Shown here piece by piece: positions 6,399 to 57,700 of a stretch of DNA of 64,000 nt. Source of the DNA: Lysobacter concretionis Ko07 = DSM 16239 (GTDB lineage Bacteria; Pseudomonadota; Gammaproteobacteria; Xanthomonadales; Xanthomonadaceae). Under the pieces are notes generated by a model, which did not search any database, was not told the DNA's origin, and saw nothing but the letters and a program-made list of their open reading frames with translations. Within the stretch, counting starts at the first letter, position 1; each line of letters starts with the position of its first letter. The position numbers and the translations under genes were made by a program. The DNA lies in the NCBI RefSeq assembly GCF_000768345.1, contig NZ_AVPS01000004.1, positions 186,001 through 250,000 of the forward strand. The letters are read 5' to 3'.

Positions 6399-6410
6399 GG
6401 CGGCCTCCCG

Positions 6411-9586: not shown

Positions 9587-9598
9587 GGCGGCATCCCC

Positions 9599-13967: not shown

Positions 13968-14009
13968 GTCGAACAGAAAGATGAAGACGAGGCGGCGAGC
14001 CGCCAACAG

Positions 14010-15229: not shown

Positions 15230-15262
15230 GGCGATTCACATCCCATTTCGCAAAGAGAACAA

Positions 15263-15574
15263 TCAGTCTTTTCTTTGGCTGTCGGTTGATCCTGCTTTCA
15301 AATCCTTGACAAACTGATATAGCTGCGGCAGGAATGAAGATAGAAGCGGGTTGTCTTTGTTCGCCAGGATGGCTCCGCCAAACAGCTTCAGACCAACCGC
15401 AAATGCCGCCGCATCTGCCTGGCTGCTGAAATCACCTCTGCTGCGAATCCACGTCACGACAGAGATGATGTCGTCATGATTCCCAACCTCAAACTGCAGA
15501 GGCTTGCGTTCACTGGGGACGCCATGTGAATCCGTCAATTGCTCCAGAGTTACGCGATAAAGGTATTGCCTCAT
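15263..15574 (-). CDS. DUF3861 family protein
   Basis: A 103-residue soluble protein (MRQYLYRVTLEQLTDSHGVPSERKPLQFEVGNHDDIISVV...). The opening YRVTLEQL and the central NHDDIISVV are typical of DUF3861, which has no known function. It lies between the efflux operon (30 bases after its last gene) and the LysR gene and is probably co-transcribed with one of them. Confidence 0.75.
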   Translation of the reverse strand: MRQYLYRVTLEQLTDSHGVPSERKPLQFEVGNHDDIISVVTWIRSRGDFSSQADAAAFAVGLKLFGGAILANKDNPLLSSFLPQLYQFVKDLKAGSTDSQRKD

Positions 15575-15604
15575 TTGTGTGGCTCCTCATGTTGGAGTGA
15601 TGAC

Positions 15605-16639: not shown

Positions 16640-16646
16640 GGTGAAA

Positions 16647-39599: not shown

Positions 39600-39789
39600 G
39601 GATCGCCTGAATTTCGAGTAGGCTGCCGAATGATTTGAGGATTAACGGCGGTGAGTCGAACTTGCCGACGATGAAGAAGCCCGCTGGGGGGCGAGACTCG
39701 TACAGCGAGGCCTGATGTGCAGTAAGACAGCGCGCCGGCGGCGCGCCGGGACGCCCAAGCTGACACCAGGGCATGAACGGGAGAAATTG

Positions 39790-39806
39790 TCGTATCAGTG
39801 ATACGA
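39790..39806. other. Perfect palindrome near the toxin-antitoxin genes
   Basis: TCGTATCA-G-TGATACGA, a 17-base palindrome 28 bases from the end of the antitoxin gene; possible protein-binding site or recombination scar. Confidence 0.4.
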
Positions 39807-39810
39807 GAAT

Positions 39811-39830
39811 CGGCGGGCGCTTTCCCGCCG
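39811..39830 (-). terminator. Terminator-like hairpin after the toxin-antitoxin genes
   Basis: Stem CGGCGGG/CCCGCCG with a six-base loop, directly after the antitoxin stop. The following minus-strand T tract is weak. Confidence 0.4.
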
Positions 39831-39834
39831 AGGG

Positions 39835-40152
39835 TCAAGCCACGTGCGCGGACGGCGGCGAAGGCAGTGGCTGCACCGCCAAGCGCAGGCCCATCGCCTT
39901 GAGGATGGCGGTCAGGCTGTTCAGGGCGGGATTGCCCTTCGGCGACAGCGTGCGGTAAAGCTGAGTCGGGTTCAGGTGAGCCTGTTCGGCCACCGCCTGC
40001 ACGCCACCGACTGCCTGTGCAAGCTGGCGCAGCACGGTCATCAGCTCGGCCTGGTCGCCATCGGCCAGGATGTTGTTGATGACTTCCAGTGCGAGCGCCG
40101 GATCGCTGCGGTACAGCTCGGCCATCGCCTCGTCATGGGGTCTGCTTCTCAT
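39835..40152 (-). CDS. HigA-like antitoxin
   Basis: The start at 40152 overlaps the toxin stop by ATGA. The 105-residue protein has a helix-turn-helix of the addiction-module antidote type (LMTVLRQLAQAVGGVQAVAEQAHLNPTQLYRTLSPKGNPALNSLTAILKAMGLRLAV). It should neutralise the RelE-like toxin encoded just upstream and bind its promoter. Toxin-first order is typical of HigBA. Confidence 0.85.
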   Translation of the reverse strand: MRSRPHDEAMAELYRSDPALALEVINNILADGDQAELMTVLRQLAQAVGGVQAVAEQAHLNPTQLYRTLSPKGNPALNSLTAILKAMGLRLAVQPLPSPPSAHVA

Positions 40153-43572: not shown

Positions 43573-45198
43573 ATGTCGCGTTATGCCCCTTACTTCCTCA
43601 GCCTCGCGCTGACCCTGCTGTCGGTGTTGCTGGCGGTGTTCGTGTCCCCGCAGTGGATCTGGGCAGTGGTGATATGCGGCAGCGTGGCGGTGCTGGGCAC
43701 CTGCGATCTATTGCAGCGTTCCAGCGCGTTGCGGCGCAACTACCCGGTGATCGCGCACTTCCGCTACGGACTGGAATCGATCGGGCCGGAAATGCGCCAG
43801 TACTTCATCCAGGCCGACACCGCCGAGGTGCCGTTCTCGCGGCTGCAGCGGGCACTGGTGTACCAGCGCGCAAAGTCGGTCAACGACACCCGCCCGTTCG
43901 GCACCATGCAGGACGTCTACGCCAACGATTACGAATGGATCAACCATTCGATGGCGCCCGCGCCGCACGGCAACCCGGACTTCCGCGTGCTGATCGGCGC
44001 GAAGACCGCGCAGCCGTACTCGGCCAGCGTGTTCAACATCTCGGCGATGAGCTTCGGTGCCTTGTCGGCCAATGCGATCCGCGCGCTCAACAAGGGTGCC
44101 AAGCTGGGCGGCTTCTATCACGACACCGGCGAGGGCTCGATCTCGCCGTATCACCGTGAGCACGGCGGCGACCTGGTGTGGGAGATCGGTTCGGGCTATT
44201 TCGGCTGCCGCGACGAGGCAGGGCGGTTCAACGCCGAGCGCTTTGCCGAAAACGCCCGCGACCCGCAGGTCAAGATGATCGAAATCAAGCTCTCGCAGGG
44301 CGCCAAGCCGGGGCATGGCGGGGTGCTGCCGGCGGCGAAGGTGAGTGCGGAAATTGCGGTCACCCGGGGCGTCACGGCTGGTGTGGATTGCGTGTCGCCG
44401 GCACAGCACAGCGCGTTCTCGACGCCGATTGAACTGCTCCAGTTCGTCGCCCGCCTGCGCGAGCTGTCCGGCGGCAAGCCGACCGGTTTCAAGCTGGCGA
44501 TCGGCCATCCGTGGGAGTGGTTCAGCATTGCCAAGGCGATGCAGGAAACCCGCCTGCTGCCGGACTTCATCGTCGTTGACGGCGCCGAGGGCGGAACCGG
44601 TGCGGCGCCGGCGGAATTCATGAACCATGTCGGCGTGCCGATGCACGAGGCGTTGATGCTGGTGCACAACACCCTGGTCGGACTGGAACTGCGTGACGAG
44701 ATCCGGATCGGCGGTGCGGGACGGATCATCAGCGCTTTCGACATCGTCCGCACCCTGGCGATGGGGGCGGACTGGTGCAATTCCGGCCGTGGTTTCATGT
44801 TCGCCGTCGGCTGCATCCAGGCCCAGAGCTGCCACACCGACCGCTGTCCGACCGGCGTGGCGACCCAGGACCCGGCGCGCTGGAAAGGGCTGGATGTCAC
44901 CGACAAGTCGATCCGCGTGCACGGCTTCCATCGCAACACGATGATCGCGTTGCGCGACCTGCTGTGTGCGGCGGGTTTGAGCAGCCCGGGCGAGGTCGGG
45001 CCGGAGCACATCCTGCGCCGGGTGTCGCCGATCGAGGTGCGCTCGCTGGCCGCGCTGTACCGGTTTCTCAAGCCCGGCCAGTTGCTGGCCGGCATTCCCG
45101 AACACGCGGTGTTCCAGAAGTATTGGGCCGCTGCGCGCAGCGACTCGTTTGCGGCACCCGCCCACGTGCAGTCGATGCAGGAAAGCAAGTCGTACTAG
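43573..45198 (+). CDS. FMN-binding glutamate synthase-like protein
   Basis: The 541-residue protein has an N-terminal membrane segment (about 8-55) and the central FMN-binding domain of glutamate synthase (SVFNISAMSFGALSANAIRALNKGAKLGGFYHDTGEGSISPYH, VKMIEIKLSQGAKPGHGGVLPAAKVS, FIVVDGAEGGTGAAPAEFMNHVGVPMHEAL). Cysteines for an Fe-S cluster are in GCIQAQSCHTDRCPTGVATQ. The glutaminase and GXGXG domains of GltB are absent, so it is a separate oxidoreductase of uncertain substrate. Chromosomal, 21 bases after the transglycosylase gene. Confidence 0.92.
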   Translation: MSRYAPYFLSLALTLLSVLLAVFVSPQWIWAVVICGSVAVLGTCDLLQRSSALRRNYPVIAHFRYGLESIGPEMRQYFIQADTAEVPFSRLQRALVYQRAKSVNDTRPFGTMQDVYANDYEWINHSMAPAPHGNPDFRVLIGAKTAQPYSASVFNISAMSFGALSANAIRALNKGAKLGGFYHDTGEGSISPYHREHGGDLVWEIGSGYFGCRDEAGRFNAERFAENARDPQVKMIEIKLSQGAKPGHGGVLPAAKVSAEIAVTRGVTAGVDCVSPAQHSAFSTPIELLQFVARLRELSGGKPTGFKLAIGHPWEWFSIAKAMQETRLLPDFIVVDGAEGGTGAAPAEFMNHVGVPMHEALMLVHNTLVGLELRDEIRIGGAGRIISAFDIVRTLAMGADWCNSGRGFMFAVGCIQAQSCHTDRCPTGVATQDPARWKGLDVTDKSIRVHGFHRNTMIALRDLLCAAGLSSPGEVGPEHILRRVSPIEVRSLAALYRFLKPGQLLAGIPEHAVFQKYWAAARSDSFAAPAHVQSMQESKSY

Positions 45199-45253
45199 CG
45201 ATGCGCAACGCAGGCTGAGGCGGGAGGCGGGCGGCCCGGTCCAGATGGGCAGC

Positions 45254-45604
45254 TCAGAGCAGTTCGAGCACCCGCTCGGGTGGCCGGCCGATCACGGCCC
45301 GTCCGCCATGGACGAAGACTGGCCGCTCGATCAGGCGCGGATGGGAGGCCATCGCCCCGATCAGCTCCGCATCCGATTTGTCCGGATCGGCCAAGCCGAG
45401 TTCGGCGTATTCGGTCTCGCCGGTACGCAGCAGCTCCCGCGCCGGCACGCCGAGCATCCGCAGCAGTTCCTGCAGCTCATCCACGGTGGGAGGCGTGTCC
45501 AGATAGTGGATGACCTGCGGGTTGATGCCGTTTTGTTGCAGCAGTTCCAGTGTCCCGCGTGACTTGGAGCAGCGCGGGTTGTGGTACAGCCGGGTGTCGT
45601 TCAT
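45254..45604 (-). CDS. arsC: Arsenate reductase, glutaredoxin-dependent type
   Basis: The start at 45604 (MNDTRLYHNPRCSKSRGTLELLQQ) gives 116 residues, the family length. The catalytic cysteine is in NPRCSKSR, and RPVFVHGGRAVIGRPPERVLELL is the typical C-terminal segment. It reduces arsenate to arsenite. No other ars genes are near, so a different reductase role of the ArsC/YffB group is possible. Confidence 0.9.
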   Translation of the reverse strand: MNDTRLYHNPRCSKSRGTLELLQQNGINPQVIHYLDTPPTVDELQELLRMLGVPARELLRTGETEYAELGLADPDKSDAELIGAMASHPRLIERPVFVHGGRAVIGRPPERVLELL

Positions 45605-45733
45605 GGGAAGGCTCCAGTGCCGGTGGATCGGGCACCTATCGTAGCCGCCGCCATCCGGCGCGACGACGCGAGGACACGAGGGCCGAAGCCTGCCTGCTCC
45701 CCCGATTTGCGCCCACAACAAACGCCCACAACA

Positions 45734-45762
45734 AAAAAGCCACCCGGTGAAGGTGGCTTTTT
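45734..45762. terminator. Bidirectional terminator left of element 2
   Basis: AAAAAGCCACC/GGTGGCTTTTT (45734-45744/45752-45762), with T tracts on both strands, between arsC and the att site. Confidence 0.8.
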
Positions 45763-45801
45763 CGTGATTGTCCTGGTGGGCGGTAGTGGGATCGAACAAC
45801 T

Positions 45802-45821
45802 GACCCTTGCCGTGTGAAGGC
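45802..45821. other. attL core of element 2
   Basis: GACCCTTGCCGTGTGAAGGC, identical to 54511-54530 within tRNA-Val(CAC). The preceding bases 45777-45801 resemble the tRNA T arm and acceptor but are diverged, as expected of a displaced or drifted 3' end. Confidence 0.85.
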
Positions 45822-45880
45822 GTATTTTAACCCTTTGGTATCAGCGAGTTGCAATGTAAGTCATTGATAAATAAGGCCGC

Positions 45881-45900
45881 GACATTTCGCGACATTTCGC
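45881..45900 (+). repeat. Tandem 10-mer GACATTTCGC before the satellite integrase
   Basis: Two adjacent copies of GACATTTCGC, followed by GG. Likely regulator or integrase-binding site, 43 bases before the integrase start. Confidence 0.55.
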
Positions 45901-45911
45901 GGTATCCTTCG

Positions 45912-45936
45912 GCCTGCTGTTACGGTGCAGTTACGG
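45912..45936 (+). repeat. Left arm repeat of the satellite
   Basis: GCCTGCTGTTAC plus GGTGCAGTTACGG; the right copy is at 54391-54415 (two mismatches). The left copy overlaps the integrase ribosome-binding region, so bound integrase could regulate its own gene. Confidence 0.65.
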
Positions 45937-45943
45937 AGTGATT

Positions 45944-47179
45944 ATGAAGGTCTCGCGCAAGTTGTCACCGGCTGTTGTCGAGGGTGCAAAACCCGAGGGC
46001 GACCCCTACCGGGTTTGGGACACGCAGGTTCCGCAATTGTTCCTGCGCGTGCAGCCGTCCGGCGTCAAGTCGTTCAACGTCCAATGGTCGCGGACTAGCT
46101 CGCGCTCGCTTGGCAAGTGGCCGGGCGTCACCGTCGAGGCGGCGAGAAAAAAAGCGCGGGATGGGCTGGTCGAGACCGATAAACACGGCGCGCCGCTGGC
46201 CGTGATTCAGGCGAGCAAGCCGGTAGCCGACAAGCCGCTGACCCTGCGCGAGTTCGTCGAGGGCGACTATCAGGAATGGGTAAAGCACGAGCTGAAGCGG
46301 GGCACGGAAGCTGTTAACCGCATCCTGTCCGTGTTCGCCAAGCTGGCGGCTACCCCGTTGCCGGATATCGACCAAAAGGCCGTGGAGAGCATCATCACCG
46401 CGCGCCGTCGCAAGGGAGTGACCACGGCGACCACCAACCGCGACCTAGCTGGGATCAAAGCCGCGCTCGCCAAGGCCGTGGAATGGAAGCTGCTGAAGGT
46501 GCACCCGCTGACCGGCGTCAAGCCTTCCAGGGTCACGACCGGCAACGTGGTGCGCTACCTGACGACCGATGAAGCCAAGGCGCTACGCGAGGCGCTGGCG
46601 GCCCGTGAGGCCACCCGTAGGGCCAGCCGTGAGCGGCACAACGCATGGCACGAAGCGCGAGGCACTGCCGGGCATCCGCTGTGGCCGGACGACGGCTTCA
46701 CGGATCACTTAGCGCCGATGGTGTTGCTCGCCATGAACACCGGCTTGCGGCGTGGCGAGTTGTTCGGTCTGGAGTGGAAGACGGTCAACCTTGCGGCCAA
46801 TATGCTGACCGTCACGGCGGCATCGGCGAAGTCTGAAAAGACCCGCCACGTGCCCCTGAACATCGAGGCTTCCGATGTGCTGACCCGATGGAAGAAGCAG
46901 AGCGACGGCACCGGGCTGGTGTTCCCGAGCGAGGGCGGCGCGCGTATGGGCAGCATCAAGAAATCATGGGCCGGCCTGACCACCGACGCCAAGTTGATCG
47001 ACTTCCGGTTCCACGATCTACGCCACGACTTCGCATCGAAGCTGGTCATGGGCGGCGTGGACCTAAACACCGTGCGCGAGTTGCTAGGCCACTCCGACAT
47101 CAAGATGACGCTGCGTTACGCCCACCTCGCGCCTGACCACCTGGCGGCTGCTGTGGCTAAGCTGGGGGCGATGCAATGA
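45944..47179 (+). CDS. int: Tyrosine recombinase of the satellite
   Basis: The ATG at 45944 is preferred (GGAG six to nine bases upstream) to a GTG six bases earlier. The 411 residues have an arm-binding N-terminus (QLFLRVQPSGVKSFNVQWSRTSSRSLGKWPGVTVEAARKKARD), a SAM-like core-binding domain and the catalytic Arg in LAMNTGLRRGELFGLEW, the FHDLRHDFASKL box, LLGHSDIKMTLRYAHLAP with the nucleophilic Tyr. It should recombine att sites in tRNA-Val(CAC). Confidence 0.95.
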   Translation: MKVSRKLSPAVVEGAKPEGDPYRVWDTQVPQLFLRVQPSGVKSFNVQWSRTSSRSLGKWPGVTVEAARKKARDGLVETDKHGAPLAVIQASKPVADKPLTLREFVEGDYQEWVKHELKRGTEAVNRILSVFAKLAATPLPDIDQKAVESIITARRRKGVTTATTNRDLAGIKAALAKAVEWKLLKVHPLTGVKPSRVTTGNVVRYLTTDEAKALREALAAREATRRASRERHNAWHEARGTAGHPLWPDDGFTDHLAPMVLLAMNTGLRRGELFGLEWKTVNLAANMLTVTAASAKSEKTRHVPLNIEASDVLTRWKKQSDGTGLVFPSEGGARMGSIKKSWAGLTTDAKLIDFRFHDLRHDFASKLVMGGVDLNTVRELLGHSDIKMTLRYAHLAPDHLAAAVAKLGAMQ

Positions 47180-47682
47180 GCGGCCTGCCTAAATGGACTC
47201 ACATCGCGCAGGACTTCGCAGACTTTAGCGAGTGCGACGACCCCGAGCAGGTCACATTCGATACTTGGGGAGACGCTGAATTCGGCTTTCAAGTTGCAGC
47301 TTTCGACGTGTGGTTGACTGGCCTTTACGAATGCAGCGCACGAGATGAGCTATTGCGGCATCGGGCGCAGGCGTTCGCTGCCTTCCGGGCCAATGAACGA
47401 GAAACGGCCGGTCTACTGTTTCAGCTTATGCGAGCGCGTCAAAAGATGGTTCAAGCCAAACCCCTCGCGATGGCTGGGCAGAAACAAAAGCACGGAGGCC
47501 GCAAAGGCGCGAAGGCGAGCAAGCAGGCGCGGCGTGGCCCTGAATCCAAGCGGGCCGCGATCCTTGCCGCGCTGAGTGCCTACGCCGGCCCGGATTCCGC
47601 CAAGGTCGCAACCGTCGCACGCAAGACCGGCGCGACCCCGCGCTATGTCCGCCGGGTGCAGGGAGAAAACAAGGAACCGTAG
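47176..47682 (+). CDS. Hypothetical protein with basic C-terminal HTH-like region
   Basis: A 168-residue protein coupled to the integrase by ATGA. The first 100 residues are acidic and helical (FDVWLTGLYECSARDELLRHRAQAFAAFRANERETAGLLFQLMRARQKM). A basic linker (GGRKGAKASKQARRG) leads to a small helical domain (RAAILAALSAYAGPDSAKVATVARKTGATPRYVRRVQ) that looks like a helix-turn-helix. I do not recognise a family. Confidence 0.75.
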   Translation: MSGLPKWTHIAQDFADFSECDDPEQVTFDTWGDAEFGFQVAAFDVWLTGLYECSARDELLRHRAQAFAAFRANERETAGLLFQLMRARQKMVQAKPLAMAGQKQKHGGRKGAKASKQARRGPESKRAAILAALSAYAGPDSAKVATVARKTGATPRYVRRVQGENKEP

Positions 47683-47757
47683 CTCCTACAGTTCCGCGCA
47701 GCGTTCCTAGTCTGCCCCCAGTCGCGACCCCCTCGCGACGTAACAAGGGGCAAAAAA

Positions 47758-48000
47758 TTGAAGAAGATTCAACCGTTCAAACTGGGACTGGCGCAGATTG
47801 CCGAGGCAACTGGCGAATCCCTCCCGCTGATCCACGACGCCATCAAGGCCGGCCACCTGGACACGTTCCTTGTCGGCCGTCGCCGCTTCGCCAAGCCCGA
47901 AGCCGTGCAGGCATGGGTGGACTTCCTGCAAAAGCAGAGCAACGCCGGCCGGCCGGTTTCGTACCGGGCGCGGGACGTGGAGCGGAGGGCCGTGGTATGA
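47758..48000 (+). CDS. Small excisionase/Cox-like DNA-binding protein
   Basis: An 80-residue protein with TTG start and AAGGGG nine bases upstream. LGLAQIAEATGESLPLIHDAIKAGHLDTFLVGRRRFAKPEAVQAWVDFLQKQ has the winged-helix pattern of AlpA/Xis proteins. Likely directionality factor or early regulator of the satellite. Confidence 0.75.
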   Translation: MKKIQPFKLGLAQIAEATGESLPLIHDAIKAGHLDTFLVGRRRFAKPEAVQAWVDFLQKQSNAGRPVSYRARDVERRAVV

Positions 48001-48221
48001 CCGCCCCCGAGATTGCCGCCCTGCGCGCCATCTATGGCCGCCCCAGCGCCGACCGCATCGCGGAGTTGATCGACGCCACCGACGCGCTAGCCGCTGCCCT
48101 GCAAACGCTACGCACGAACCCCACGCGGGATGGTGCCGATCGGATCGCCAATCAGTTGCACGGCATGCACCGCAGCGCCAGCCAACTGGTGGCCGTCCTG
48201 GCGCAGGAGGTGGCGGAATGA
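47997..48221 (+). CDS. Small helical protein of unknown function
   Basis: A 74-residue protein, coupled by ATGA overlaps to both neighbours. It is almost wholly helical (MTAPEIAALRAIYGRPSADRIAELIDATDALAAALQTLRTNPTRDGADRIANQLHGMHRSASQLVAVLAQEVAE). The pattern is somewhat like an HPt helical bundle, but this is only an impression. Confidence 0.6.
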   Translation: MTAPEIAALRAIYGRPSADRIAELIDATDALAAALQTLRTNPTRDGADRIANQLHGMHRSASQLVAVLAQEVAE

Positions 48222-48772
48222 CTGCCGTCAAATACCCCCGCGTCCTGGCGATCCACGAGGCCGGCCACGCGGTGGTGGGCGTCATCCAAGGCCAGTGGAT
48301 CGACGGCGTACACATGCGCACCAAACAGGAAGTGCGGACGGGCGACAAGATCATCACCGAGCGCGGCGTGGCGGTACATGCGCAGGGGCTGGTCGAGGGC
48401 AGTTCGATGGTGCACCCGGCCAGCGTCAAGGAATGTTTGGCTCAGGGCATCGTGGTGCCGGTTCGCCGGGACTCCGCCTTGATCGACATGATCGGTCTGG
48501 CGGCCGGCGTCATTGCCGAAGCGAGGCATTCGCGGCGCAGTGCGATGGAGATCGCGTTGTTTGGTGGCGGCAGCGGGGATCACGAAGCGATGCGTGCACG
48601 CGCTGAACTGCTACCCGATCCACGCGAAGCCGAGGGCGAGGCTTGGGCTACCGCCAAGCAGTTGGTGCGCAAGCATTGGCGGGCCGTCGAGGCATTGGCT
48701 GACGTGCTTCAGCGCAAGCGCTACACACCCGGCGAGCAGGTACACGCGATCGTCATGGCGGTGGCCCAATGA
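48218..48772 (+). CDS. HEAGH peptidase-like protein (M41/FtsH peptidase type)
   Basis: The 184-residue protein has a zinc-protease motif HEAGHAVV at residues 13-20 (H13, E14, H17) like the peptidase domain of FtsH, followed by glycine-rich GLAAGVIAEARHSRRSAMEIALFGGGSGDHEAMRARAEL, which resembles the M41 region with the third zinc-binding aspartate. There is no AAA or membrane domain. It could process a phage or satellite protein; target unknown. Coupled to the primase gene by ATGA. Confidence 0.75.
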   Translation: MTAVKYPRVLAIHEAGHAVVGVIQGQWIDGVHMRTKQEVRTGDKIITERGVAVHAQGLVEGSSMVHPASVKECLAQGIVVPVRRDSALIDMIGLAAGVIAEARHSRRSAMEIALFGGGSGDHEAMRARAELLPDPREAEGEAWATAKQLVRKHWRAVEALADVLQRKRYTPGEQVHAIVMAVAQ

Positions 48773-51000
48773 GGCCCGCACATGAAAACGCCCCGACCGG
48801 CGAGGGTCGAGGCGCGGAAAACATTGAAGCGGGCAGCTTCGTTTCCGATCATACCCCCATCGCTGTAGACGTGCACGAAGCGCAACGCTTCCTGGCCGTG
48901 CTTGATCCCGATGGCGAGTCGTGGCACTTCCGCACGTTCGCCGATACGGGCAGCGGTGGCGGCAAGAACTACGCCGGCGCGCTGGTCGACGTGGCCACCG
49001 ACCTGCAACTGGACAACGGCAACGGGCGCGGCGTGTTCGTGGTGGTCGGCGATGGTGGTGGTAAGGATGCAGAGATAGTCCGCGTCCGGGCTGTGTTCGC
49101 CGACTTCGATGGCACGCCGATGCCGGACACGTTCGACCTGGACCCGCACCTGATTGTTGAATCGAGCGCCGGCAAGTACCACGCCTATTGGCTGGTCGAC
49201 GGCATGGGCGTGGATGCGTTCAAGCCGACGCAACAGGCGATTGCGGCGCGGTACGGCAGCGACCCCAGCGTGTGCAATCCATCGCGCGTGATGCGCCTTC
49301 CGGGGTTCGTGCACCGCAAGGGCGAGCCGTTCCAGACCCGCATCATCCACGAATCGGGCGAGCCGCCATACAGTGCTGTCGAGGTGCTGGCAGCGTTCCC
49401 GCAGGCGTCCAAGGAGACCCCCCGGCAAGAGCATGCAACGGGCACTGGCGAGCGTGTGGTGAGCGAGGAGCGCCACGGCGATCTGCTGAAGCTGGCGGCG
49501 CGATTCGCACGGCAGGTTCACTTCGACGGGCTGGGTTCCGACGCGGCGCTGGCGGCGTTGTTTGCCGAGGCCGCACGGGGCCGGTGGACGCGCGAGGTTC
49601 CTGCCGATGAGATCCGGCGCGCCTTCGACGGTGCACTGGACAAGTGCCGGCGTGGCGAATGGAAGCAGGCGGATCAACCCGACGCGGATGATGCCAATGA
49701 TGAGCCGCCCGAGCCGCGTTTGATCGAGGTCGAGGTGGGCAACCTGATGAGCGCCAAGGTGGTGGCCCCGCGCTTCGTGGCTGCCCCGATCATCCCGCGC
49801 GGCGTGGCGACCTTGCTGGGTGGTCATGGCGGTGGTGGCAAGACCAACGGCGCGCTGTTGATGGTCGCGCATACCGCGTGCGGGCGACCCTGGGCTGGGT
49901 TCGAGTTCGAGCAGTGCAAAGGCGTGTTTATCAGCCTGGAGGACTCCGGCGACAAGGTACGTTTCACCCTGCGCAGGATCGTGGAGACGTACCGCCTAGA
50001 TTCGGAACTGGTGGCCGCGAACGTGCGCATCTTCGACGGCACGCAGGGCGATGCGGCGCTGATGACCGAGTTGAACGACCACGGCAACCGCACGTTGGTG
50101 CCGACGCCCCTGATGGTCGAGATGGAGGCCGCATGCGTCGGGGCTGGCTTGATCGTGGTCGACAACGCATCGGATGGATTCGACGGCAACGAAAACGACC
50201 GCAGGCAGGTGCGGGGTTTCATGCGCCGGTTGGCGGGCATCGCGAAGACCAACGACGCCGGTCTGGTGTTGCTGGCCCATATCGACAAGCACGCCGCGCG
50301 CAGCGGAGGCAGCGGCAACAACTACTCCGGCAGCACGGCCTGGCACAACTCGGCCCGCAGCCGGTTGGCGCTGGTCGACGAGGATGGCGCGATCGAGCTA
50401 CGCCACGAGAAATGCAACCTCGCCAAGAAAGCTGACCCGGTGCGGTTGGCATGGAATGACTTGGGCGTGTTGATCCCCGTCGCGGTGGACACGGCGAGCG
50501 CGAACGCAAGCGCCGACTTGATCGCCAGTGCCGACGCTGACCACGTGTTCGAGGTGGTGCGCGTGGCAGTGGAGTCGGGCGAGATCATCACGACTTCCAC
50601 GGCTGGCCCGCATACCACGGTGCATGCACTGGAGGCGCTTCCCGAGCTGGGGAAGGTCTACCGCGATAAGAGTGGCCGCAAGCGCGTGCGGGCGGCAATC
50701 GTTCGACTCGCTCGAGAGGGGCGCATCGTCCGCGCGACGTACACCACGCCGTCAAGGAACGTCCGGGAGTGCTGGCAGCCTTCCGAACTAACGCAGTCTG
50801 CCCCCGCAGGTGGTGAAAAAATCACCACAAATCCGCGTTGGTTAGATACCCCCATACCCCCACGCGCAACTAACGCGCAGTCGGGGGACTGCGTTAGTTC
50901 CGTTGAAGCCCCAACTAACGCAACTAACGCAACTAACGCAGACGAGTGTCCTAGGTGCGATGGCGAGGGCTGCCGTCACTGCGTCGAGGTGGCGCTGTGA
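48769..51000 (+). CDS. Fused primase-helicase (RepB-like primase, AAA RepA-like ATPase)
   Basis: The 743-residue protein has an N-terminal RepB-type primase domain (about 60-200: VRAVFADFDGTPMPDTFDLDPHLIVESSAGKYHAYWLVDGMG...SVCNPSRVMRLPGFVHRKG). A linker leads to a RepA/RecA-like AAA domain with Walker A LLGGHGGGGKTNGALL (about 349-364) and Walker B LIVVDNASDGFDG (about 460). C-terminal about 200 residues include a winged-helix-like region. It should replicate the satellite. Its last codons hold a short cysteine cluster (ECPRCDGEGCRHC) like a zinc knuckle. ATGA-coupled upstream. Confidence 0.88.
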   Translation: MRPAHENAPTGEGRGAENIEAGSFVSDHTPIAVDVHEAQRFLAVLDPDGESWHFRTFADTGSGGGKNYAGALVDVATDLQLDNGNGRGVFVVVGDGGGKDAEIVRVRAVFADFDGTPMPDTFDLDPHLIVESSAGKYHAYWLVDGMGVDAFKPTQQAIAARYGSDPSVCNPSRVMRLPGFVHRKGEPFQTRIIHESGEPPYSAVEVLAAFPQASKETPRQEHATGTGERVVSEERHGDLLKLAARFARQVHFDGLGSDAALAALFAEAARGRWTREVPADEIRRAFDGALDKCRRGEWKQADQPDADDANDEPPEPRLIEVEVGNLMSAKVVAPRFVAAPIIPRGVATLLGGHGGGGKTNGALLMVAHTACGRPWAGFEFEQCKGVFISLEDSGDKVRFTLRRIVETYRLDSELVAANVRIFDGTQGDAALMTELNDHGNRTLVPTPLMVEMEAACVGAGLIVVDNASDGFDGNENDRRQVRGFMRRLAGIAKTNDAGLVLLAHIDKHAARSGGSGNNYSGSTAWHNSARSRLALVDEDGAIELRHEKCNLAKKADPVRLAWNDLGVLIPVAVDTASANASADLIASADADHVFEVVRVAVESGEIITTSTAGPHTTVHALEALPELGKVYRDKSGRKRVRAAIVRLAREGRIVRATYTTPSRNVRECWQPSELTQSAPAGGEKITTNPRWLDTPIPPRATNAQSGDCVSSVEAPTNATNATNADECPRCDGEGCRHCVEVAL

Positions 51001-51254
51001 ACGCCCGGTGCGATCGGTGCGGGGCTGGGTTCCCCCGCGACTCTGCCGACGACTGGAAGCGGCTCTGCCTGCCTTGCTGGCGCGAGACCAACGCCAAGCC
51101 CGCGACGACCAGGCGAGCGCCCCCGGCAGCGGTGCCTGCCGAGATGCTGCCCCGCTTGATCCGGCTGTGCCATCCCGACCGGCACAACAACAGCGAGGCG
51201 GCGACCACCGCGACCCAGTGGCTGCTGTCCCTGCGTCAAGGCGGTGGACGGTGA
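50997..51254 (+). CDS. Small CxxC zinc-ribbon protein with HPD motif
   Basis: The GTG at 50997 overlaps the primase stop and gives 85 residues. CDRCGAGF (C-x2-C) and CLPCWRE (C-x2-C) form a probable zinc ribbon. LIRLCHPDRHNNSEAATTATQWLLSLR resembles helix II-III of a DnaJ J-domain, including HPD. The two parts suggest DNA/protein binding plus a possible DnaK interaction; no experiment is known to me. Confidence 0.65.
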   Translation: MNARCDRCGAGFPRDSADDWKRLCLPCWRETNAKPATTRRAPPAAVPAEMLPRLIRLCHPDRHNNSEAATTATQWLLSLRQGGGR

Positions 51255-51657
51255 GTTCGACGCGGCCCGCTATCGAGAGCACGTCCCGCCGACCTGGGCC
51301 GGACTGTGTGCGGGCCGCCGTGGCTTCGCAGGGCACGGCAACCCATACGGCGACCATTTGCTGGTCTGGTGGCAAACAGGCGGTCAGGAGCGCGCCCCCG
51401 AGGTCAGGCGCTACCTTGCTCGCTGCGCGTCACTGGCGTGGCACTGCGAGCCGCTGGTGGCCGTTGCGGCGATCACCGATGCGATGGCGTTGGTGGCGTC
51501 GAGGCGGTGCCGTCCGGCCGGCGTGGCAGCCAAGGCACTGCGAATGCGCAATGGTGAGTTCCTGCGACTGCGCACCGATGCCGCGCGCTGGTTGTCCCGT
51601 GGAATCGACCAGGCAGTGGGTCGCTACCGATCGGGAACGCTGCGCCCCCGCTTCTAG
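51244..51657 (+). CDS. Hypothetical satellite protein
   Basis: A 137-residue protein with a GTG start that overlaps the upstream gene by 11 bases. It opens MDGEFDAARYREHVPPTWAGLCAGRRGFAGHGNPYGDHLLVWWQTGG and ends in basic helices. No family recognised. Likely part of the replication operon. Confidence 0.6.
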   Translation: MDGEFDAARYREHVPPTWAGLCAGRRGFAGHGNPYGDHLLVWWQTGGQERAPEVRRYLARCASLAWHCEPLVAVAAITDAMALVASRRCRPAGVAAKALRMRNGEFLRLRTDAARWLSRGIDQAVGRYRSGTLRPRF

Positions 51658-51858
51658 GCAAACTGTTGTTGTGGCCCTACACCCGACCCGACCAGAGCCA
51701 CCACGCGATGCCCGGCGCGATATCCGGGCGCTCTGTGAGGGGGGGCATGGAAAGTCTGGAGAGGTCGACACCGGACACCGAGCCACCCCCAAACTTCACG
51801 CATCCACAATTCAGAACACGACCCCGCCTGAGTGATTCGGCGGGCGCAGGAGGACGGC

Positions 51859-52029
51859 ATGGGCGACCACAAGCAACATGCGATCAAGCGCCGGGAACTG
51901 GAATGGCTGCTACGCGATTACGGCGTGTCCCGCTCGCTTCGGTTGGGCGTGGCACAGGCGCTGTCTCCAGAGTCTTTGGACAAGCTGCTACGGCAACTGA
52001 AGCGGCGAAGCATTTTTAGCCTTTCATGA
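51859..52029 (+). CDS. Small basic protein before the capsid gene
   Basis: The start at 51859 has GGAGG eight bases upstream. The 56-residue product is helical and basic (MGDHKQHAIKRRELEWLLRDYGVSRSLRLGVAQALSPESLDKLLRQLKRRSIFSLS). Such small proteins before capsid genes can be head assembly factors or regulators; no family is recognised. Confidence 0.55.
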   Translation: MGDHKQHAIKRRELEWLLRDYGVSRSLRLGVAQALSPESLDKLLRQLKRRSIFSLS

Positions 52030-52335
52030 GTCAAGAATTTTAGCGAAATGCAGATGACATGCCGGGCGCTGTCATCTGCGGTAACAGGCATGCCGGGCGC
52101 TGCCTGCGAAACAACAAGCCCCGCCACATACGGCGGGCGCGGTGCACGTCACCCCCTCGGTTACTTCGGTTCGGGCGATCCAATCGAATGACCAGTCTCG
52201 CGCGCGACGCCGGGACAAGAGGTGCGGAACGTGCAACCGGACACGGAAACCGACCGGGCAAAGGGGTTTACGCGACGTAACCCCATTGCATGCGGCAGGT
52301 CTGTATCGACTCCCCAATTCAAAGGAACAACTGCA
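52030..52335. other. Capsid gene leader with hairpins
   Basis: Non-coding. Contains the twin hairpins 52050-52106 and an imperfect palindrome GGGGTTTACG/ACGTAACCCC (52263-52284). The capsid start with AAGGAA lies at its end. Confidence 0.6.
52050..52106 (+). promoter_or_regulatory. Twin hairpins with an identical loop
   Basis: Stem GCAGATGACA/TGTCATCTGC (52050-52059/52070-52079) and stem CAGGCA/TGCCTG (52085-52090/52101-52106) both close the loop TGCCGGGCGC. Different stems with the same loop suggest a recognised RNA structure (for example a protein-binding or attenuator element) or a palindromic DNA site. Confidence 0.6.
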
Positions 52336-53475
52336 ATGACTGCAAACATTAACGAGCTGGTCGGCGAGATCAATACCGCCTTCGCCGAGTTCAAGGAACA
52401 CCACACCGACGAGCTGCGCGCGATCCGCAGCGAGATCGAAGGCGTGGCCACGGGTCAGGCCGCCCGCGAGATGGGCGGGGCCACGGTCGGCAACCGCCTG
52501 GCGGTCTCGGTTGGTGCCAGCGTCACCAAGGGCATCGGCGAGAACCCCGCGTTTGCTGCGCTGAAGGAATGGAATCAGGGCACCGCGCGACTCAACATCG
52601 ACGCAGGCATCCGTGCCGCGATGGGTAACGAGAACTTCGTCCCGACCGATGGCACGTTCTACCCGAGCCAGCCGGAGCGCCGCGATGGAGCGGTGCTGAA
52701 GCCGCAGCGTCCGTTGCGCTTGATGGACGTATTGCCGTCGCGTCCGGTCAAGACGGATTCGGTGGAGTTCGTGCAGCTCAACGCGACCGGCGATGCTACC
52801 GAGCAGATCAAGGAAGGCGACGAAAAGCAGGGCATCACCTTTGCGGGCGTCAAGCAGTCGGCCATCGTGGCGACCATCGCCGGCCACACGACCGCATCGC
52901 GGCAGGTGCTGGACGACGTGAACACGCTCAAGTCGCAGGTTGATTCGGTGCTGTCCCACAAGGTGCTGTCCCGACTGGAACACCAGTTGATCAACGGTGC
53001 CGGTGGCGCTGGGCAGATCAACGGATTGCTGACCCAGGCATCGGCGTTCGTTCCGACCATCGGCACGACCGAGGCGGACATCATCGGCGAGGCGCTGGTG
53101 GCGATGGCGAACGCGGGCTATGCGCCCGGTCTGGTGCTGATGAATCCGATGGACTGGTTCCGCATCCAGCTGACCCGCAAGAACGAAACCGATGATGAGT
53201 ACGTGTTCGGTTCGCCGACCGTCCCGGTACCGCCGTCGCTGTGGAACACCCGCATCGTGACCACGCCGAGCATCGCGGCCCGTTCGGCGCTGGTGGTCGA
53301 CACCGCGTTCACCACGGTGCTGGATCGCCAGAAGGTCAGCGTGCTGGTGAGCAACAGCCACGCGGATTACTTCACCCGGAACCTGATCATGATCCTTGCC
53401 GAGATGCGCGCGGGTCTGGAGGTGCTGGACGTGAACGCCGTGCGGAAGCTGACCCTTCCCGCCATCGTCCCATAA
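52336..53475 (+). CDS. HK97-fold major capsid protein
   Basis: The start at 52336 (MTANINELVGEINTAFAEFKEHHTDELRAIRSEIEG) gives 379 residues. A helical N-terminal segment (about 1-75) resembles the delta domain of HK97-type capsids, followed by the coat fold (DGAVLKPQRPLRLMDVLPSRPVKTDSVEFVQLNATG, HTTASRQVLDDVNTLKSQVDSVLSHKVLSRLEHQLINGAG, GLVLMNPMDWFRIQLTRKNETDDEYVFGSP). No prohead protease, portal or terminase gene accompanies it. It could build or resize heads using helper components. Confidence 0.92.
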   Translation: MTANINELVGEINTAFAEFKEHHTDELRAIRSEIEGVATGQAAREMGGATVGNRLAVSVGASVTKGIGENPAFAALKEWNQGTARLNIDAGIRAAMGNENFVPTDGTFYPSQPERRDGAVLKPQRPLRLMDVLPSRPVKTDSVEFVQLNATGDATEQIKEGDEKQGITFAGVKQSAIVATIAGHTTASRQVLDDVNTLKSQVDSVLSHKVLSRLEHQLINGAGGAGQINGLLTQASAFVPTIGTTEADIIGEALVAMANAGYAPGLVLMNPMDWFRIQLTRKNETDDEYVFGSPTVPVPPSLWNTRIVTTPSIAARSALVVDTAFTTVLDRQKVSVLVSNSHADYFTRNLIMILAEMRAGLEVLDVNAVRKLTLPAIVP

Positions 53476-53564
53476 GACTCCTAGCAGGGGTTCGCGACTG
53501 GGGCCTGCTAGGAACCTAACCCCCTGAGCGGCTGGTTTGCCTACCGGCGAAAGAAACAGGCGCT

Positions 53565-53599
53565 AGCCCCCGTCCTAACCGGCGGGGGCTTTCTTTTAT
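53565..53599 (+). terminator. Terminator after the capsid gene
   Basis: Stem AGCCCCCG/CGGGGGCT (53565-53572/53583-53590), a 10-base loop and a TTTCTTTTATT tail; the cold-shock gene follows. Confidence 0.85.
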
Positions 53600-53614
53600 T
53601 GCGAGGGACGAAAC

Positions 53615-53863
53615 ATGACAGAGGAAACACACACCGGCACGGTCGCCCATTGGGATGATGCGCGCGGGTTTGGCTTCGTGACACCGGACGCAGGCAGCGC
53701 TGACGTGTTCGTGAGCTTTGCCACCATTGAAGGCGACGTGCGCCTGGCAGCCGGGGAGCGCGTGGAGTTCATCGCGTTCCCAACCCCGAGAGGGCCGAGG
53801 GCGAGAACCGCGCGACGTGTCGGAGAGGCGACCGGCAAGGATACGGGGGGCATAAAAGTCTGA
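53615..53863 (+). CDS. Cold-shock domain protein
   Basis: The 82-residue protein is a cold-shock domain (THTGTVAHWDDARGFGFVTPDAGSADVFVSFATIEGDVRLAAGERVEFIAF) with the RNP motifs GFGFVT and DVFVSF. It binds single-stranded nucleic acid. It has terminators on both sides, so it is probably its own transcription unit. Likely a satellite gene affecting RNA structure or helper transcription. Confidence 0.9.
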   Translation: MTEETHTGTVAHWDDARGFGFVTPDAGSADVFVSFATIEGDVRLAAGERVEFIAFPTPRGPRARTARRVGEATGKDTGGIKV

Positions 53864-53978
53864 GACCCCTTCACGCCCTGACCGATCTGCCCCCTTCGCA
53901 TCATCGGTAAGTCCAAAGACTTGGTGAAAAAATAGCCAACCGTCTGGCGCTGCCGAGCTGGCGTATAAATCACACTGA

Positions 53979-54012
53979 CCCCGTTCCGGACAATCCGGGC
54001 CGGGGCTTTTTT
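53979..54012 (+). terminator. Terminator after the cold-shock gene
   Basis: Outer stem CCCCG/CGGGG (53979-53983/54001-54005) and inner stem CCGGA-CAA-TCCGG (53986-53998), followed by CTTTTTT. Confidence 0.8.
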
Positions 54013-54390
54013 GTGCCCGCGATTCGGGAAAATCGCCACAACCTGAGCGATGCCGGCACGTGCGCCAAGCGTAGTTCAATCGCTAAGGGCAGGTCACGAG
54101 CAACCCCCGATCCGATAGCGTGAGCAATGGCCGTCCAGGCTGCCCAGAACGTCGCGCAAGGGCTGCGGCTGCCCCCCGGCCCATATCGACCTGCCTGAAG
54201 CGTGTACGCCCTTCTGACTCGCCATCATGAGCAACCGTCCCTGGCACCGCTGGAACGATGCTGACCTGGCCCATGCCGCCACCCGGCGCGGGCCCAGTTC
54301 GACACGGAGAGCTACGGCGCAATGGTGGCCGGCACTGACCCCGCCATGCCGTGCGCTGGCGAGGGTCTTCTTTTGCCTGCTGAGTGCGCG

Positions 54391-54415
54391 GCCTGCTGTT
54401 ACCGTGCTGTTACGG
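54391..54415 (+). repeat. Right arm repeat of the satellite
   Basis: GCCTGCTGTTAC plus CGTGCTGTTACGG; direct repeat of 45912-45936 with two mismatches. Confidence 0.65.
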
Positions 54416-54427
54416 GCCAGAAACGAA

Positions 54428-54450
54428 AAAACCGACACTAGGCCGGTTTT
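54428..54450 (-). terminator. Terminator of tRNA-Val
   Basis: AAAACCG/CGGTTTT (54428-54434/54444-54450), 33 bases downstream of the minus-strand tRNA-Val 3' end, followed on that strand by TTTTTCG. Confidence 0.6.
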
Positions 54451-54482
54451 CGCTGTAATGCTTGCTGTGTAAGGCTTTCCAC

Positions 54483-54557
54483 TGGTGGGCGGTGCAGGGA
54501 TCGAACCTGCGACCCTTGCCGTGTGAAGGCAATGCTCTACCGCTGAGCTAACCGCCC
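54483..54557 (-). tRNA. tRNA-Val(CAC), satellite integration site
   Basis: A 75-base cloverleaf on the minus strand: acceptor GGGCGGT/ACCGCCC, D arm GCTC-AGCGGTA-GAGC, anticodon stem TTGCC/GGCAA with loop TTCACAC (anticodon CAC), T arm GCAGG-TTCGATC-CCTGC and encoded CCA. The 20-base att core of element 2 covers the anticodon arm and variable loop. The gene remains intact because the element supplies the 3' end. Confidence 0.96.
54511..54530. other. attR core of element 2
   Basis: GACCCTTGCCGTGTGAAGGC, identical to 45802-45821. Confidence 0.85.
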
Positions 54558-54568
54558 GGGGGCCGCGC

Positions 54569-54599
54569 AGTATACAGCGAAGCGGGGGATTTTTGGCAA
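54569..54599 (-). promoter_or_regulatory. Promoter of tRNA-Val
   Basis: On the minus strand TTGCCA (54599-54594) and TATACT (54574-54569) are 19 bases apart, with TATACT 11 bases before the tRNA. The spacing is slightly long. Confidence 0.5.
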
Positions 54600-54773
54600 G
54601 TGGTTATTCGCCATCGCGCTTCGTCTGTCTCACCCAATGAGATGCGTCCGTAGTACGTTGGCGCAGCAAAATCCATTGTCGCCCGGCACGACCCCGCACC
54701 CCGATCCGCCCATGCCGGTCGGCACGGGGCGGGTCGGGAATGACCGCACCGTCTTGATCCGCAGGGGCCCGCA

Positions 54774-57700
54774 TTGGAAGAAATCGACCGTGGACTGATC
54801 GTCTACCGGGCCAGCCGGCTGGAAGGCCTGCTGGAAGCGTTGGCGTATTTCATCGGCCAGCATCCGCCAAGCCAGGTGCTCGCGCCGCAGACGGTGATCG
54901 CGGCCCATCCGGGGATGAAGCAGTGGCTGTCCACCGAGCTCGCGCGCCGGCGCTGCGAGGGCGGTATCAGCGGCATTGCGGCCAATCTGGACATCGTCCT
55001 GCCCAGTGCCTGGCTGGACCGGCTGGCGATGGAAGTGCAGGGCGAGTCGGCGGTCGCATTGGCGCCGTATCAGCGTGGCGGCCTGCGCTGGCGCATCCAC
55101 GAAATCCTGCCGACGCTGGACGATGCACAGGTTCACCGGTATCTGGAAGGCAGCGACCAGGCGCGCCGCCGGTTCCAGCTGGCCGACCGGCTGGCGCGCA
55201 TCTACACGCAGTACATCGTGTACCGGCCCGACTGGCTGGATGCGTGGGCGGTCGGCAAGCGCCTGCCGGAATTGGCGGGCGGCGACTCGCGCGGGCACGA
55301 TCTGCTGGCGTCGCTGTGGAAAAAACTGCGGCAGCAGGTCGGTCATCCTCATCGCGGCGAGTTGTTGAAGCAGGTGCGGGCGAGCTTGCTGGGCGGGCAG
55401 CCGATCGTCGATGAAGCCGAGCCGCTGCACGTGTTCGGCATCAGCCATCTGGCGCCGTCGGAGCTGGGCGTATTGGCCTCCGTGGCGCAGCGCCGGCCGG
55501 TGGTGCTGTATGTGCCGGACCCGTGCCGGGAGTACTGGCTTGATCAGCGCGGCGACCGCGAGACGTTGCGGCAGCAGGTCGAGGCCGACCCCTACGGGCA
55601 GGCGACCGAAAGCCTCTTCCTGCAGCAGCGCCACCCGCTGCTGGGCGCCTGGGGCCGGATGGGGCAGCACTTCCTGCTGGCGTTGGACGGCCTGGAGGTG
55701 GGCGTCGATATCCGCCATTGGGGTGACAAGTCCGAGGAGGCACCGGATGGAAACCGCCTGCCGCGGCTGCAGGAAAGCATCCGTCGATTCGCCCCGGAGC
55801 TGCTGGCGCCGGTGGGCGGTCATGCCAGCCAGCGCGACGACGCTTCGCTGCGGGTGCACGCCTGCCATACCCGCCTGCGCGAGCTGGAGGTGCTGCGCGA
55901 CGCGCTGTTGAAGGCGCGGGTGGACAACCCGGACCTGCTGCCGCGCGACATCGTCGTCATGGCGCCCGACATCCAGGCCTACGTGTCGCTGCTGCCGGCG
56001 GTGTTCGGCGCGGCCGGTGAACACCAGGGCCCGCTGCCGTACCACATCGCCGACGTGGCGGTGGCGCGTTCGCATTCGTTGCTGGAAGCCTTCCGGCGGC
56101 TGCTGGACCTGCCCCAGTCGCGGATCACCGCGCCCGAAGTCGTCGACCTGCTGGGCGTGCCGGAAATCGCCCGCCGTTTCGAACTGGCCGACGCGGACAT
56201 CGCGGTGCTGGTCGGCTGGTTGCAGAACAGCCGGGTGGCCTGGGCGCTGGATGGCCGGTTCCGCAGCGACCTGGGTGTGCCGGCGATCGACGAACACACC
56301 TTCGCCTGGGGCATGGACCGGATGATGGCCGGTTACCTCATGGGCGCCGTGACCGACGCCGGCGCCAATGCCGTGACGCTGCCCGACGGCAGCACGCTTG
56401 CGCCGCTGGCCGGTGTCCACGGTCCGCAGGCCGCGCTTCTTGGTGCGCTCGATGGCTTGCTGGTGCAACTGGCACACCTCCACGCGGCCGGCAGAAAGAC
56501 CCGGCGGGCCAGTGAATGGGCCACGTGGCTGGAGCAGGTCTTCGACGCCCTGTTCCGCATCGACACGCGGGATGCCAGCGCGCGCGAGGCCGAGGCGCAG
56601 GTGCGCCGGTTCATCCGTGCGATCGCCAGCGAGCCGAAGCAGGGCGATCCGGCTTCCTCGCTTGATCCGGAGCTGGAGTTCAGCGTCGTGCGCGAGGTGC
56701 TGCTGGAGCGCCTGGCGGCCACGCCGGAGCGTCAGCGCTTCCTGATGGGCGGTGTGACCATCTGCGGCATGGTCCCGCAGCGCGCGATTCCGTTCCGTGT
56801 CGTGGCCGTGCTCGGCCTCAACGACGGCGACTTCCCGCGTGCCGGCAGCGATGGTGGTCTGGACCTGATGACGACCCACCGGCGCCTCGGCGACCGCGAC
56901 GTGCGCAGCGACGACCGCTACCTGTTCCTGGAAACCGTGATGTCCGCGCGCGACATGCTGCACCTGAGCTACATCGGCGAGGGCGTGCGCGACGGCAAGC
57001 CGCGCAATCCGGCCGCACCGTTGGTCGAACTGCTGGACGCGCTGGCGAACGCGGCCGCAACGCAATCGGGTGACGCGGACATCGGCCGGCCGTGGCACAT
57101 CAAGCACCCGCTGCAGCCATTTGATGCGCGCTATTTCGATGGCAGCGACCGGGCGCTGTTCTCGTTCAGCCACAGCCACGCGGCCATGGATGCCGGTGAC
57201 CACGCGGCGTTGTCCGGATGGTCCTTCGTCGACGGCACGGCCGTGGACGCGGCCGACGAAACGTCATCGTCCATCGCATTGCGGCAGGTGTTCGCCTATT
57301 TCCGCGACCCCGCCAGACACCTTCTGGCCGATGGACTCCGTCTGCGGCTGGACGCGTTGAGCGAGGATCGCCTGCGCGACCGCGAACGGCTGGAAGCAAA
57401 ATTCGAAGGCCTGGACCAGATCGCCAAGCGCGTGTTCAACGCCGCCGTGTCGGTGCCGGAAAAAGCGGTGCCGGAAGACGTCCCGGAGTGGATGCGGCTG
57501 ACCGGCATGGTGCCGCCGGGGACGGTCGGCGATGAAGCCTGGTCCACGACCCGCAAAGAAGTCGCGGCATTGTTGGCGACCATTGATGGGCACGCGTTGT
57601 TCGACCCCGCATTGCCGGAAGCGACGCCGCTGCTGATCGATCGCCCGCTGCGCGGGACGGACGGCGCCCGCCTGCAGGGCGAGTTGCGCAAGGTCTACGA

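Follow-up and report, generated by a model that had tools for sequence, protein, structure and literature searches.

How a mobile element that encodes a phage coat protein, and no other recognised virion component, could come to be packaged is the question raised by a locus of Lysobacter concretionis Ko07 = DSM 16239. The window that we analysed is a stretch of 64,000 nucleotides (RefSeq assembly GCF_000768345.1, contig NZ_AVPS01000004.1, positions 186,001 to 250,000 of the forward strand), and the element lies at positions 45802-54530 of that window. An initial annotation of this DNA had described a satellite with its own coat gene and had proposed that it could force a helper phage to build heads of a different size. 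We consider it probable that the element is a satellite resembling the phage-inducible chromosomal islands (PICIs), and that its major capsid protein (MCP) co-assembles with the coat protein of a helper phage and so shrinks the heads. We file it as PICI-like rather than as a proven PICI because its regulator match is weak and its induction and transfer are predicted.

The element spans 8,709 bp and is bounded by exact 20-bp direct repeats, whose positions are the ends given by the initial annotation. Its boundaries and principal genes are as follows.

45802-45821, unstranded: attL core, a 20-bp direct repeat that matches 54511-54530 exactly
45944-47179, plus strand: tyrosine integrase, 411 aa (Phage_integrase 7.5e-30, Arm-DNA-bind_3; scanned as 45938-47179)
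48769-51000, plus strand: primase-helicase, 743 aa (RepB_primase 3.8e-14 and AAA_25 1.9e-21)
50786-50940, unstranded: iteron array, six copies of AACTAACGCR within the primase gene, at its 3' end; candidate origin of replication
52336-53475, plus strand: HK97-type MCP, 379 aa (Pfam, PHROGs and NCBIfam matches and fold model)
54483-54557, minus strand: tRNA-Val (cac), the integration target (Rfam tRNA, 70.4 bits)
54511-54530, unstranded: attR core within tRNA-Val, an exact match to the attL core

Between the repeats every called gene lies on one strand. Like a Gram-negative PICI, the element has a terminal integrase gene and occupies a specific attachment site. The insertion at tRNA-Val is real: tRNA-Val adjoins an arsC-like gene in six of nine congeners, where no element is present and 68-170 bp separate the tRNA from that same gene. 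The remaining three congeners are also without the element; two small genes intervene in one and ordinary genes in the other two. In the former (G109; L095, 895-1473), the two small genes look by eye like a HicAB-like toxin-antitoxin system. Head-tail modules, which the initial annotation had held would contradict a satellite, occur at this tRNA-Val in none of the nine.

The integrase, primase-helicase and HK97-type capsid genes are confirmed by Pfam matches, the capsid gene also by PHROGs and NCBIfam, and, as the initial annotation had stated, no portal, prohead protease, terminase or tail gene was recognised. Among the ten element proteins, Pfam and PHROGs scans found neither a portal nor a terminase, and the one further match to a phage structure is weak, that of the integrase to a minor tail family (E 0.006, PHROGs). 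Hidden Markov models (HMMs) from phage portals, large terminase subunits (TerLs), proteases, tape measures and tail protein I matched only the MCP within positions 44501-56000. The genome of a PICI is small and has no genes for portal, large terminase, tail or lysis, none of which is recognised here, and it includes its own primase-rep gene with an adjacent origin, to which the RepB_primase/AAA_25 protein and the six iterons (0.08 copies expected in 64 kb) correspond; by analogy with PICIs, the iteron array is likely the replication origin. A complete HK97-type prophage would have TerL, portal and protease genes upstream of the MCP gene, and none is recognised in the element. Capsid-forming PICIs encode a complete set of head and packaging proteins, portal and terminase among them; the element shares with them a satellite-coded capsid protein, but has the MCP alone of that set. 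P4-like satellites are defined by the Sid and Psu capsid genes, neither of which was matched among the ten proteins (Pfam, PHROGs). The resemblance to Gram-negative PICIs takes in an integrase, a small regulator, a primase-rep protein, a length near 10 kb and an attachment site of its own; it is a likeness of gene content, with a regulator that is only a weak HTH_17 match.

The coat protein matches Phage_capsid in Pfam (9.8e-27), the phrog_10 major head protein in PHROGs (6.5e-35) and TIGR01554 in NCBIfam (7.6e-24); its reading frame is intact, and its nearest relative is 55% identical. An AlphaFold2 model of moderate confidence (mean pLDDT 71.5) predicts an HK97-like fold with a helix at residues 3-44 and a spine-like helix at residues 195-220. 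Foldseek placed HK97 prohead I (8fqk) first for this model (E 2.7e-22), with the D3 prohead at 1.0e-21 and the EcCI2 capsid at rank 41 (E 2.7e-10). Likewise, a profile of ten satellite MCPs run against PDB sequences found the coats of HK97, D3 and phiXacJX1, and none named Ccm was listed. Top-ranked phage MCPs come from Stenotrophomonas and Xanthomonas phages. A Ccm-type capsid redirector would have an N-terminal delta domain shorter than that of the helper MCP; counted from start codons that were chosen by hand for the satellites, 132 residues precede the anchor column in the window MCP, versus 137-157 in seven annotated phage MCPs. Among 47 aligned MCPs, 11 of 347 well-filled columns are invariant, including those of HK97 K169, N356 and E363 (K164, N349 and E356 in the window MCP), which we take to be the residues that make the HK97 cross-link. 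The triad is kept in all 28 satellite rows and in all 19 other rows. Its presence in satellite MCPs shows retention and not gain, because the same residues stand in every one of the 19 phage-labelled rows.

Experimental precedent comes from SaPIbov5, a Staphylococcus aureus pathogenicity island (SaPI) whose Ccm protein, a lone HK97-fold MCP homologue, turns helper heads to small size (PMC5052747, PMC8569155). Ccm forms the pentamers and the helper capsid protein (CP) the hexamers of the redirected heads (PMC5052747, PMC8569155). Ccm shares 24% sequence identity with the helper CP and is unable to form capsids by itself (PMC8569155). Its delta domain is lost, although no SaPI protease is known, and the helper titre falls 10^6 to 10^7 fold (PMC8569155, PMC5052747). 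PmCI172 also has an MCP homologue and small heads (PMC6092414). The window element is alike in being a small satellite with a single HK97-fold MCP homologue and no identified protease; just as Ccm is distant from the helper MCP, the window MCP is distant from phage MCPs. The two differ in that Ccm is from a staphylococcal host, and they probably belong to different HK97 branches.

Judged by this analogy, the proposal of the initial annotation is sound, not new, and close to an established mechanism: redirection of helper head size by a coat-only satellite is what Ccm does, whereas to describe the heads in general as "made of satellite coat protein" goes too far, since Ccm contributes pentamers only. 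A lone coat gene, which the annotation had considered unusual, is ordinary for this satellite class, with an MCP gene present in 21 of 29 reference Gram-negative PICIs (PMC10111431). We propose that an HK97/D3-type siphophage would infect the host cell or be induced in it, and that the element would then excise and replicate from its iteron array. Its MCP would co-assemble with the helper MCP, as Ccm does, to give smaller heads, for which the helper would supply portal, protease, terminase and tail. Such heads would favour DNA of satellite size and exclude the helper genome, and the satellite MCP probably remains in the mature shell because its cross-linking residues are kept. Given the invariant triad, satellite and helper subunits would be expected to be linked to each other in one chain-mail shell.

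The same features of the coat protein bear on an alternative that we consider unlikely, in which the satellite MCP alone builds the whole shell, hexamers and pentamers, on a helper portal, so that satellite heads receive helper tails. The predicted HK97-like fold with its two helices and the intact triad would suit such a protein, as would the prohead protease gene that adjoins the MCP gene in 13 of the 28 other satellite loci described below. Ccm, the sole lone MCP homologue with experiments considered here, nevertheless forms no capsids by itself (PMC8569155), and neither a protease nor a portal was recognised in the window element.

The window element belongs to a family. Searches with its MCP led to 29 loci that we class as satellite-type, the window included, the 28 others counting some close copies. 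HMMs from HK97, D3, other phages and satellites were run on six-frame open reading frames (ORFs) of the satellite loci and of 12 prophage-type loci, and gave the following sets of virion genes.

MCP only: window element, L025, L026, L037 (cut by a contig end), L077
MCP and tail protein I: L004, L038, L040, L041, L042, L044
Protease, MCP and tail protein I: L006, L007, L043
MCP and tape measure: L022, L024, L027, L050
MCP, small terminase and tape measure: L023 (cut by a contig end)
Protease, MCP and tape measure: L045
Protease and MCP: L039 (protease split over two frames), L048, L073
Protease, MCP and small terminase: L046 (cut by a contig end), L047, L072, L074, L075, L076

At least one accessory virion gene is thus present in 24 of the 29 satellite loci, several of whose virus records may be fragments. 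Eight accessory proteins were cross-checked; PHROGs agrees on all eight and Pfam, above its cut-off, on four, the L023 tape measure falling below the cut-off and the proteins of L024, L004 and L007 having no Pfam match. Apart from the two satellite loci embedded in a prophage, the other 27 gave no match to the portal, TerL or head-tail adaptor HMMs, and 11 of the 12 prophage-type loci have TerL, portal and protease together, the twelfth (L028) being satellite-like. L040 and L044 are inserted in a prophage terL gene, and their TerL and portal matches belong to that prophage; L039 and L050, which are followed by phage tail-like genes on the opposite strand, may be embedded in a prophage too. A Pfam search that covered 28 whole genomes or records, without L046, agrees: it found PF03354 in 2 and PF04860 in 3, and the positives are the two prophages that surround L040 and L044 together with a distinct prophage-like region in G001. 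The insertions in terL recall the helper-embedded PICIs described in PMC10111431, whereas the window element lies in tRNA-Val.

Element size would fit the proposed packaging. Repeats that overlap a tRNA bound the window element and L004, L007, L022, L024, L025, L026, L028 and L072-L077 at a spacing of 8,437-10,597 bp, those of L025, L072 and L075 being just 14-15 bp long; no tRNA-overlapping repeat was found for L027. At least six kinds of tRNA gene serve as targets of the satellite loci (those for Val, Arg, Met, Phe, Ser and Leu). The initial annotation had suggested looking for a family at tRNA-Val; 28 other loci were found, those with tRNA-linked repeats at varied tRNAs, and the element is absent from tRNA-Val in the nine congeners. 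The viral contig L048 (IMGVR_UViG_3300001097_001974) repeats itself with an exact tandem period of 8,997 bp (4,349/4,349 positions), and the ends of L045 share an exact repeat of 127 bp. Both point to circular or tandem DNA, assembly artefacts being possible. Altogether, 16 elements defined by tRNA-linked repeats or circular contigs measure 8.4-10.6 kb; the inserts in the terL genes of L040 and L044 are longer, at about 14 kb. If head volume scales as T^1.5, where T is the triangulation number, a helper with 39.7 kb in a T=7 head would have room for about 11 kb in a T=3 head and for 17 kb in a T=4 head. Elements of 8-11 kb would, on general grounds, suit a small head.

These loci also bear on whether the element is the remnant of a full prophage that has lost its packaging and tail genes, which we regard as very improbable. 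Its MCP is of phage type, as a remnant's would be; against this stand the 28 other loci with no portal or TerL of their own, their distribution over at least six kinds of tRNA, the differences among their replication genes, the absence of head-tail modules at tRNA-Val in the congeners and the separate clade formed by 28 satellite MCPs. With so many MCP-bearing elements that have no portal or TerL, the initial annotation was right to see a satellite rather than a decayed prophage.

That clade comes from a maximum-likelihood tree of the 47 MCPs, 28 satellite-labelled and 19 phage-labelled, with L040 left out; the tree is unrooted and holds loci found by similarity to the window MCP. The 28 satellite MCPs lie on one side of a branch with support of 100/98, recovered in 100% of 200 bootstrap trees. 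The phage-labelled L028 is satellite-like, with a 58-bp repeat at tRNA-Ser, and its MCP lies on the phage side. A single clade of all satellite MCPs is accordingly rejected: it holds for the 28 labelled rows, with L028 outside. The tree suggests one large satellite coat lineage and at least one other capture. The MCP gene is kept by selection in the relatives, because the ratio of nonsynonymous to synonymous substitution rates (dN/dS) is 0.07-0.23 in six pairs; a seventh pair (L026/L050) gave no value. This constraint bears on the rather doubtful alternative that the MCP is a leftover or dispensable passenger and that the element is packaged as concatemers in full-size helper heads. EcCICFT073, without capsid morphogenesis genes, is packaged in just such heads (PMC6092414). 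A passenger would not be expected to show these dN/dS values or to keep the triad in 28 of 28 satellite MCPs, and the MCP gene is the one structural gene common to every locus, though the loci were found through it.

A further possibility, which we think quite improbable, is that the gene acts purely against phage, a mismatched MCP poisoning the heads of an incoming phage and protecting the host with no benefit to transfer. Expression of Ccm alone cuts the phi12 titre 10^3 to 10^4 fold (PMC5052747), and two relatives have defence genes nearby: the L040 insert (3044-18869) carries the Gabija pair GajA and GajB, and L042 has, at 9879-11660 beside its satellite genes, a match to the PADLOC candidate defence system PDC-S39 (3.7e-108). 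The MCP gene nevertheless sits in a mobile element with a replication gene of its own, and its pairing with small terminase and tape measure genes in relatives fits particle building better.

The eleven best-ranked Pseudomonas phages have a tail protein I with 62-75% identity to that of L041; against the best-ranked phages, the L041 MCP is about 31% and the L043 protease 38-41% identical. From these sequences the satellite tail gene looks recently borrowed and the head genes old, and the comparison of tail gene and head gene identities points to lambdoid, HK97/D3-like siphophages as the helpers. The Pseudomonas satellite AH14b (16.8 kb), reported without structural genes and packaged in helper-size heads, has a lambda-like tail assembly protein I that is 71-74% identical to its helper's (PMC4936722); nine related loci have the same kind of gene, and the window element is without it. 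Tape measure genes of 670-1112 aa lie downstream of the MCP gene in L022, L023, L024, L027, L045 and L050. One satellite tape measure, set beside D3 orf19 (834 aa), is shorter at 698 aa and another, set beside PARCL1pr (1086 aa), is longer at 1112 aa, so that the idea of a short tail found no consistent support. Tail-tube genes were not recognised in the satellites that bear tape measures. On tails more generally, PMC11364771 deals with tail-assembly defence.

We tentatively suggest that these satellites share a dedicated coat lineage that split long ago from known phage coats while retaining their cross-link chemistry, and that most of them also encode a further interchangeable virion component or two (a protease, a small terminase, a tape measure or the tail-tip protein I). 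One satellite would then rewrite the head size, the packaging choice and the tail of its helper, and chimeric virions would result; the window element would be the minimal, coat-only form. Such a lineage with swappable parts is where novelty is possible. Among the titles and abstract openings listed in literature searches, none describes a PICI from Xanthomonadales or a PICI bearing a tape measure gene; for satellite work in Xanthomonadales (none among 15 listed of 213 matching papers) this argues only weakly that such work is lacking. The window element extends the lone-capsid strategy to Xanthomonadales. The relatives offer a natural series (MCP only, plus protease, plus small terminase, plus tape measure) from which the contribution of each virion part could be told apart.

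Several observations weigh against co-assembly with a helper coat as the function of the window MCP. The initial annotation had suggested looking for a helper prophage in the same genome, and none was found by PF03354, PF04860 and PF03237, other terminase families not having been searched. All 733 phage records matched by the window MCP are below 60% identity, the best-ranked at 34%. PICI capsid genes are reported as not required for helper-assisted transfer (PMC10111431). The element's regulator is a weak HTH_17 match only, no small terminase was recognised in it, and MCP genes appear to have been captured more than once, with at least two origins, because the L028 MCP falls on the phage side of the tree. 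We nonetheless retain co-assembly as the probable function.

The remaining features of the window element are listed here.

45910-45936, unstranded: candidate arm-site repeat for the integrase, inward of attL by about 90 bp; 27 nt, 93% identical to 54389-54415
47176-47682, plus strand: protein of unknown function, 168 aa (weak DprA_WH match only, E 0.085; no family in PHROGs or NCBIfam)
47758-48000, plus strand: small helix-turn-helix (HTH) protein in an AlpA/MerR/excisionase-like position (HTH_17 E 0.061, below cut-off)
47997-48221, plus strand: small unknown protein (gene call; weak XAC0231_fam match, 20.1 bits against a cut-off of 140)
48218-48772, plus strand: HEAGH-type zinc-motif protein (weak M41 peptidase similarity, PF01434 E 0.0021, below cut-off)
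50997-51254, plus strand: small unknown protein, 85 aa (no family in the NCBIfam scan; absent from gene-caller output)
51244-51657, plus strand: unknown protein, 137 aa (no family in Pfam, PHROGs or NCBIfam)
51859-52029, plus strand: small ORF 5' of the MCP gene (gene call only; scanned as 51832-52029, no family)
53615-53863, plus strand: cold-shock-domain protein, 82 aa (PF00313 2.4e-13; NCBIfam CspE 3.4e-14, below cut-off)
54389-54415, unstranded: candidate arm-site repeat for the integrase, inward of attR by about 95 bp, partner of 45910-45936

The 27-nt inner repeats look like integrase arm sites, a role suggested by their sequence and position. Homologues of the integrase are 45% and 46% identical in L004 (from Pseudomonas sp. 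Ant30-3) and L007, and the HTH protein has 28% and 31% matches at the equivalent place in the same two loci. Near the integrase genes of other relatives, the AlpA/MerR-type regulator is a clear AlpA (PF05930) in L022 and L006 and an HTH_17 protein in L024. The protein at 47176-47682 has a 34% match across 100 aa in L025, and residues 293-698 of the primase-helicase are 47% identical in L024. The 184-aa protein at 48218-48772, encoded between the regulator and primase genes, matches M41/M50B peptidases below the Pfam cut-off and is M41-like without the AAA part. The cold-shock protein also has some similarity to the effector model of retron Se72, with 40.5 bits against a cut-off of 82, and no reverse transcriptase was found among the scanned element proteins. 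No known defence gene was found in the four unknown ORFs, and the tRNA was the only structured RNA in the element at the Rfam gathering threshold.

Among the relatives, MCPs are 93-94% identical within L041/L042/L044, L006/L007 and L046/L075; those of L040 and L041 are the same (388/388 residues), and those of L026 and L050 agree at 321 of 407 positions. The L077 MCP was considered as broken, and this was rejected, the stop inside its match being the end of the open frame. The Lysobacter locus L005, a 43-residue match near the end of its stretch, is excluded from all counts. Prohead protease matches in L039 (5474-6144) fall in two overlapping frames, perhaps a frameshifted gene. A clustered, iteron-like 9-mer occurs in 9 of 27 loci versus 0 of 270 shuffles; iteron arrays were rejected as a family trait, the clusters of L038 and L042 lying away from the rep gene. 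A second tyrosine recombinase lies mid-element in L041 (5573-6862; PF00589 1.6e-17), with similar ones seen by eye in L038, L040, L042 and L007. In the wider class, 3 of 369 genomes, our own included, have a match at E <= 1e-60; by its gene list, the match in G816 reads as a complete prophage, and that in G630 is on a small contig. The second and third MCP matches in the L. concretionis genome are at C1:394737, around which no phage structural genes are seen in the gene calls, and at C1:281805. Elsewhere in the window, G+C content dips to about 0.58-0.61 at 13001-17000 and 37001-40000, against about 0.65-0.69 around them, and these dips are perhaps other islands.

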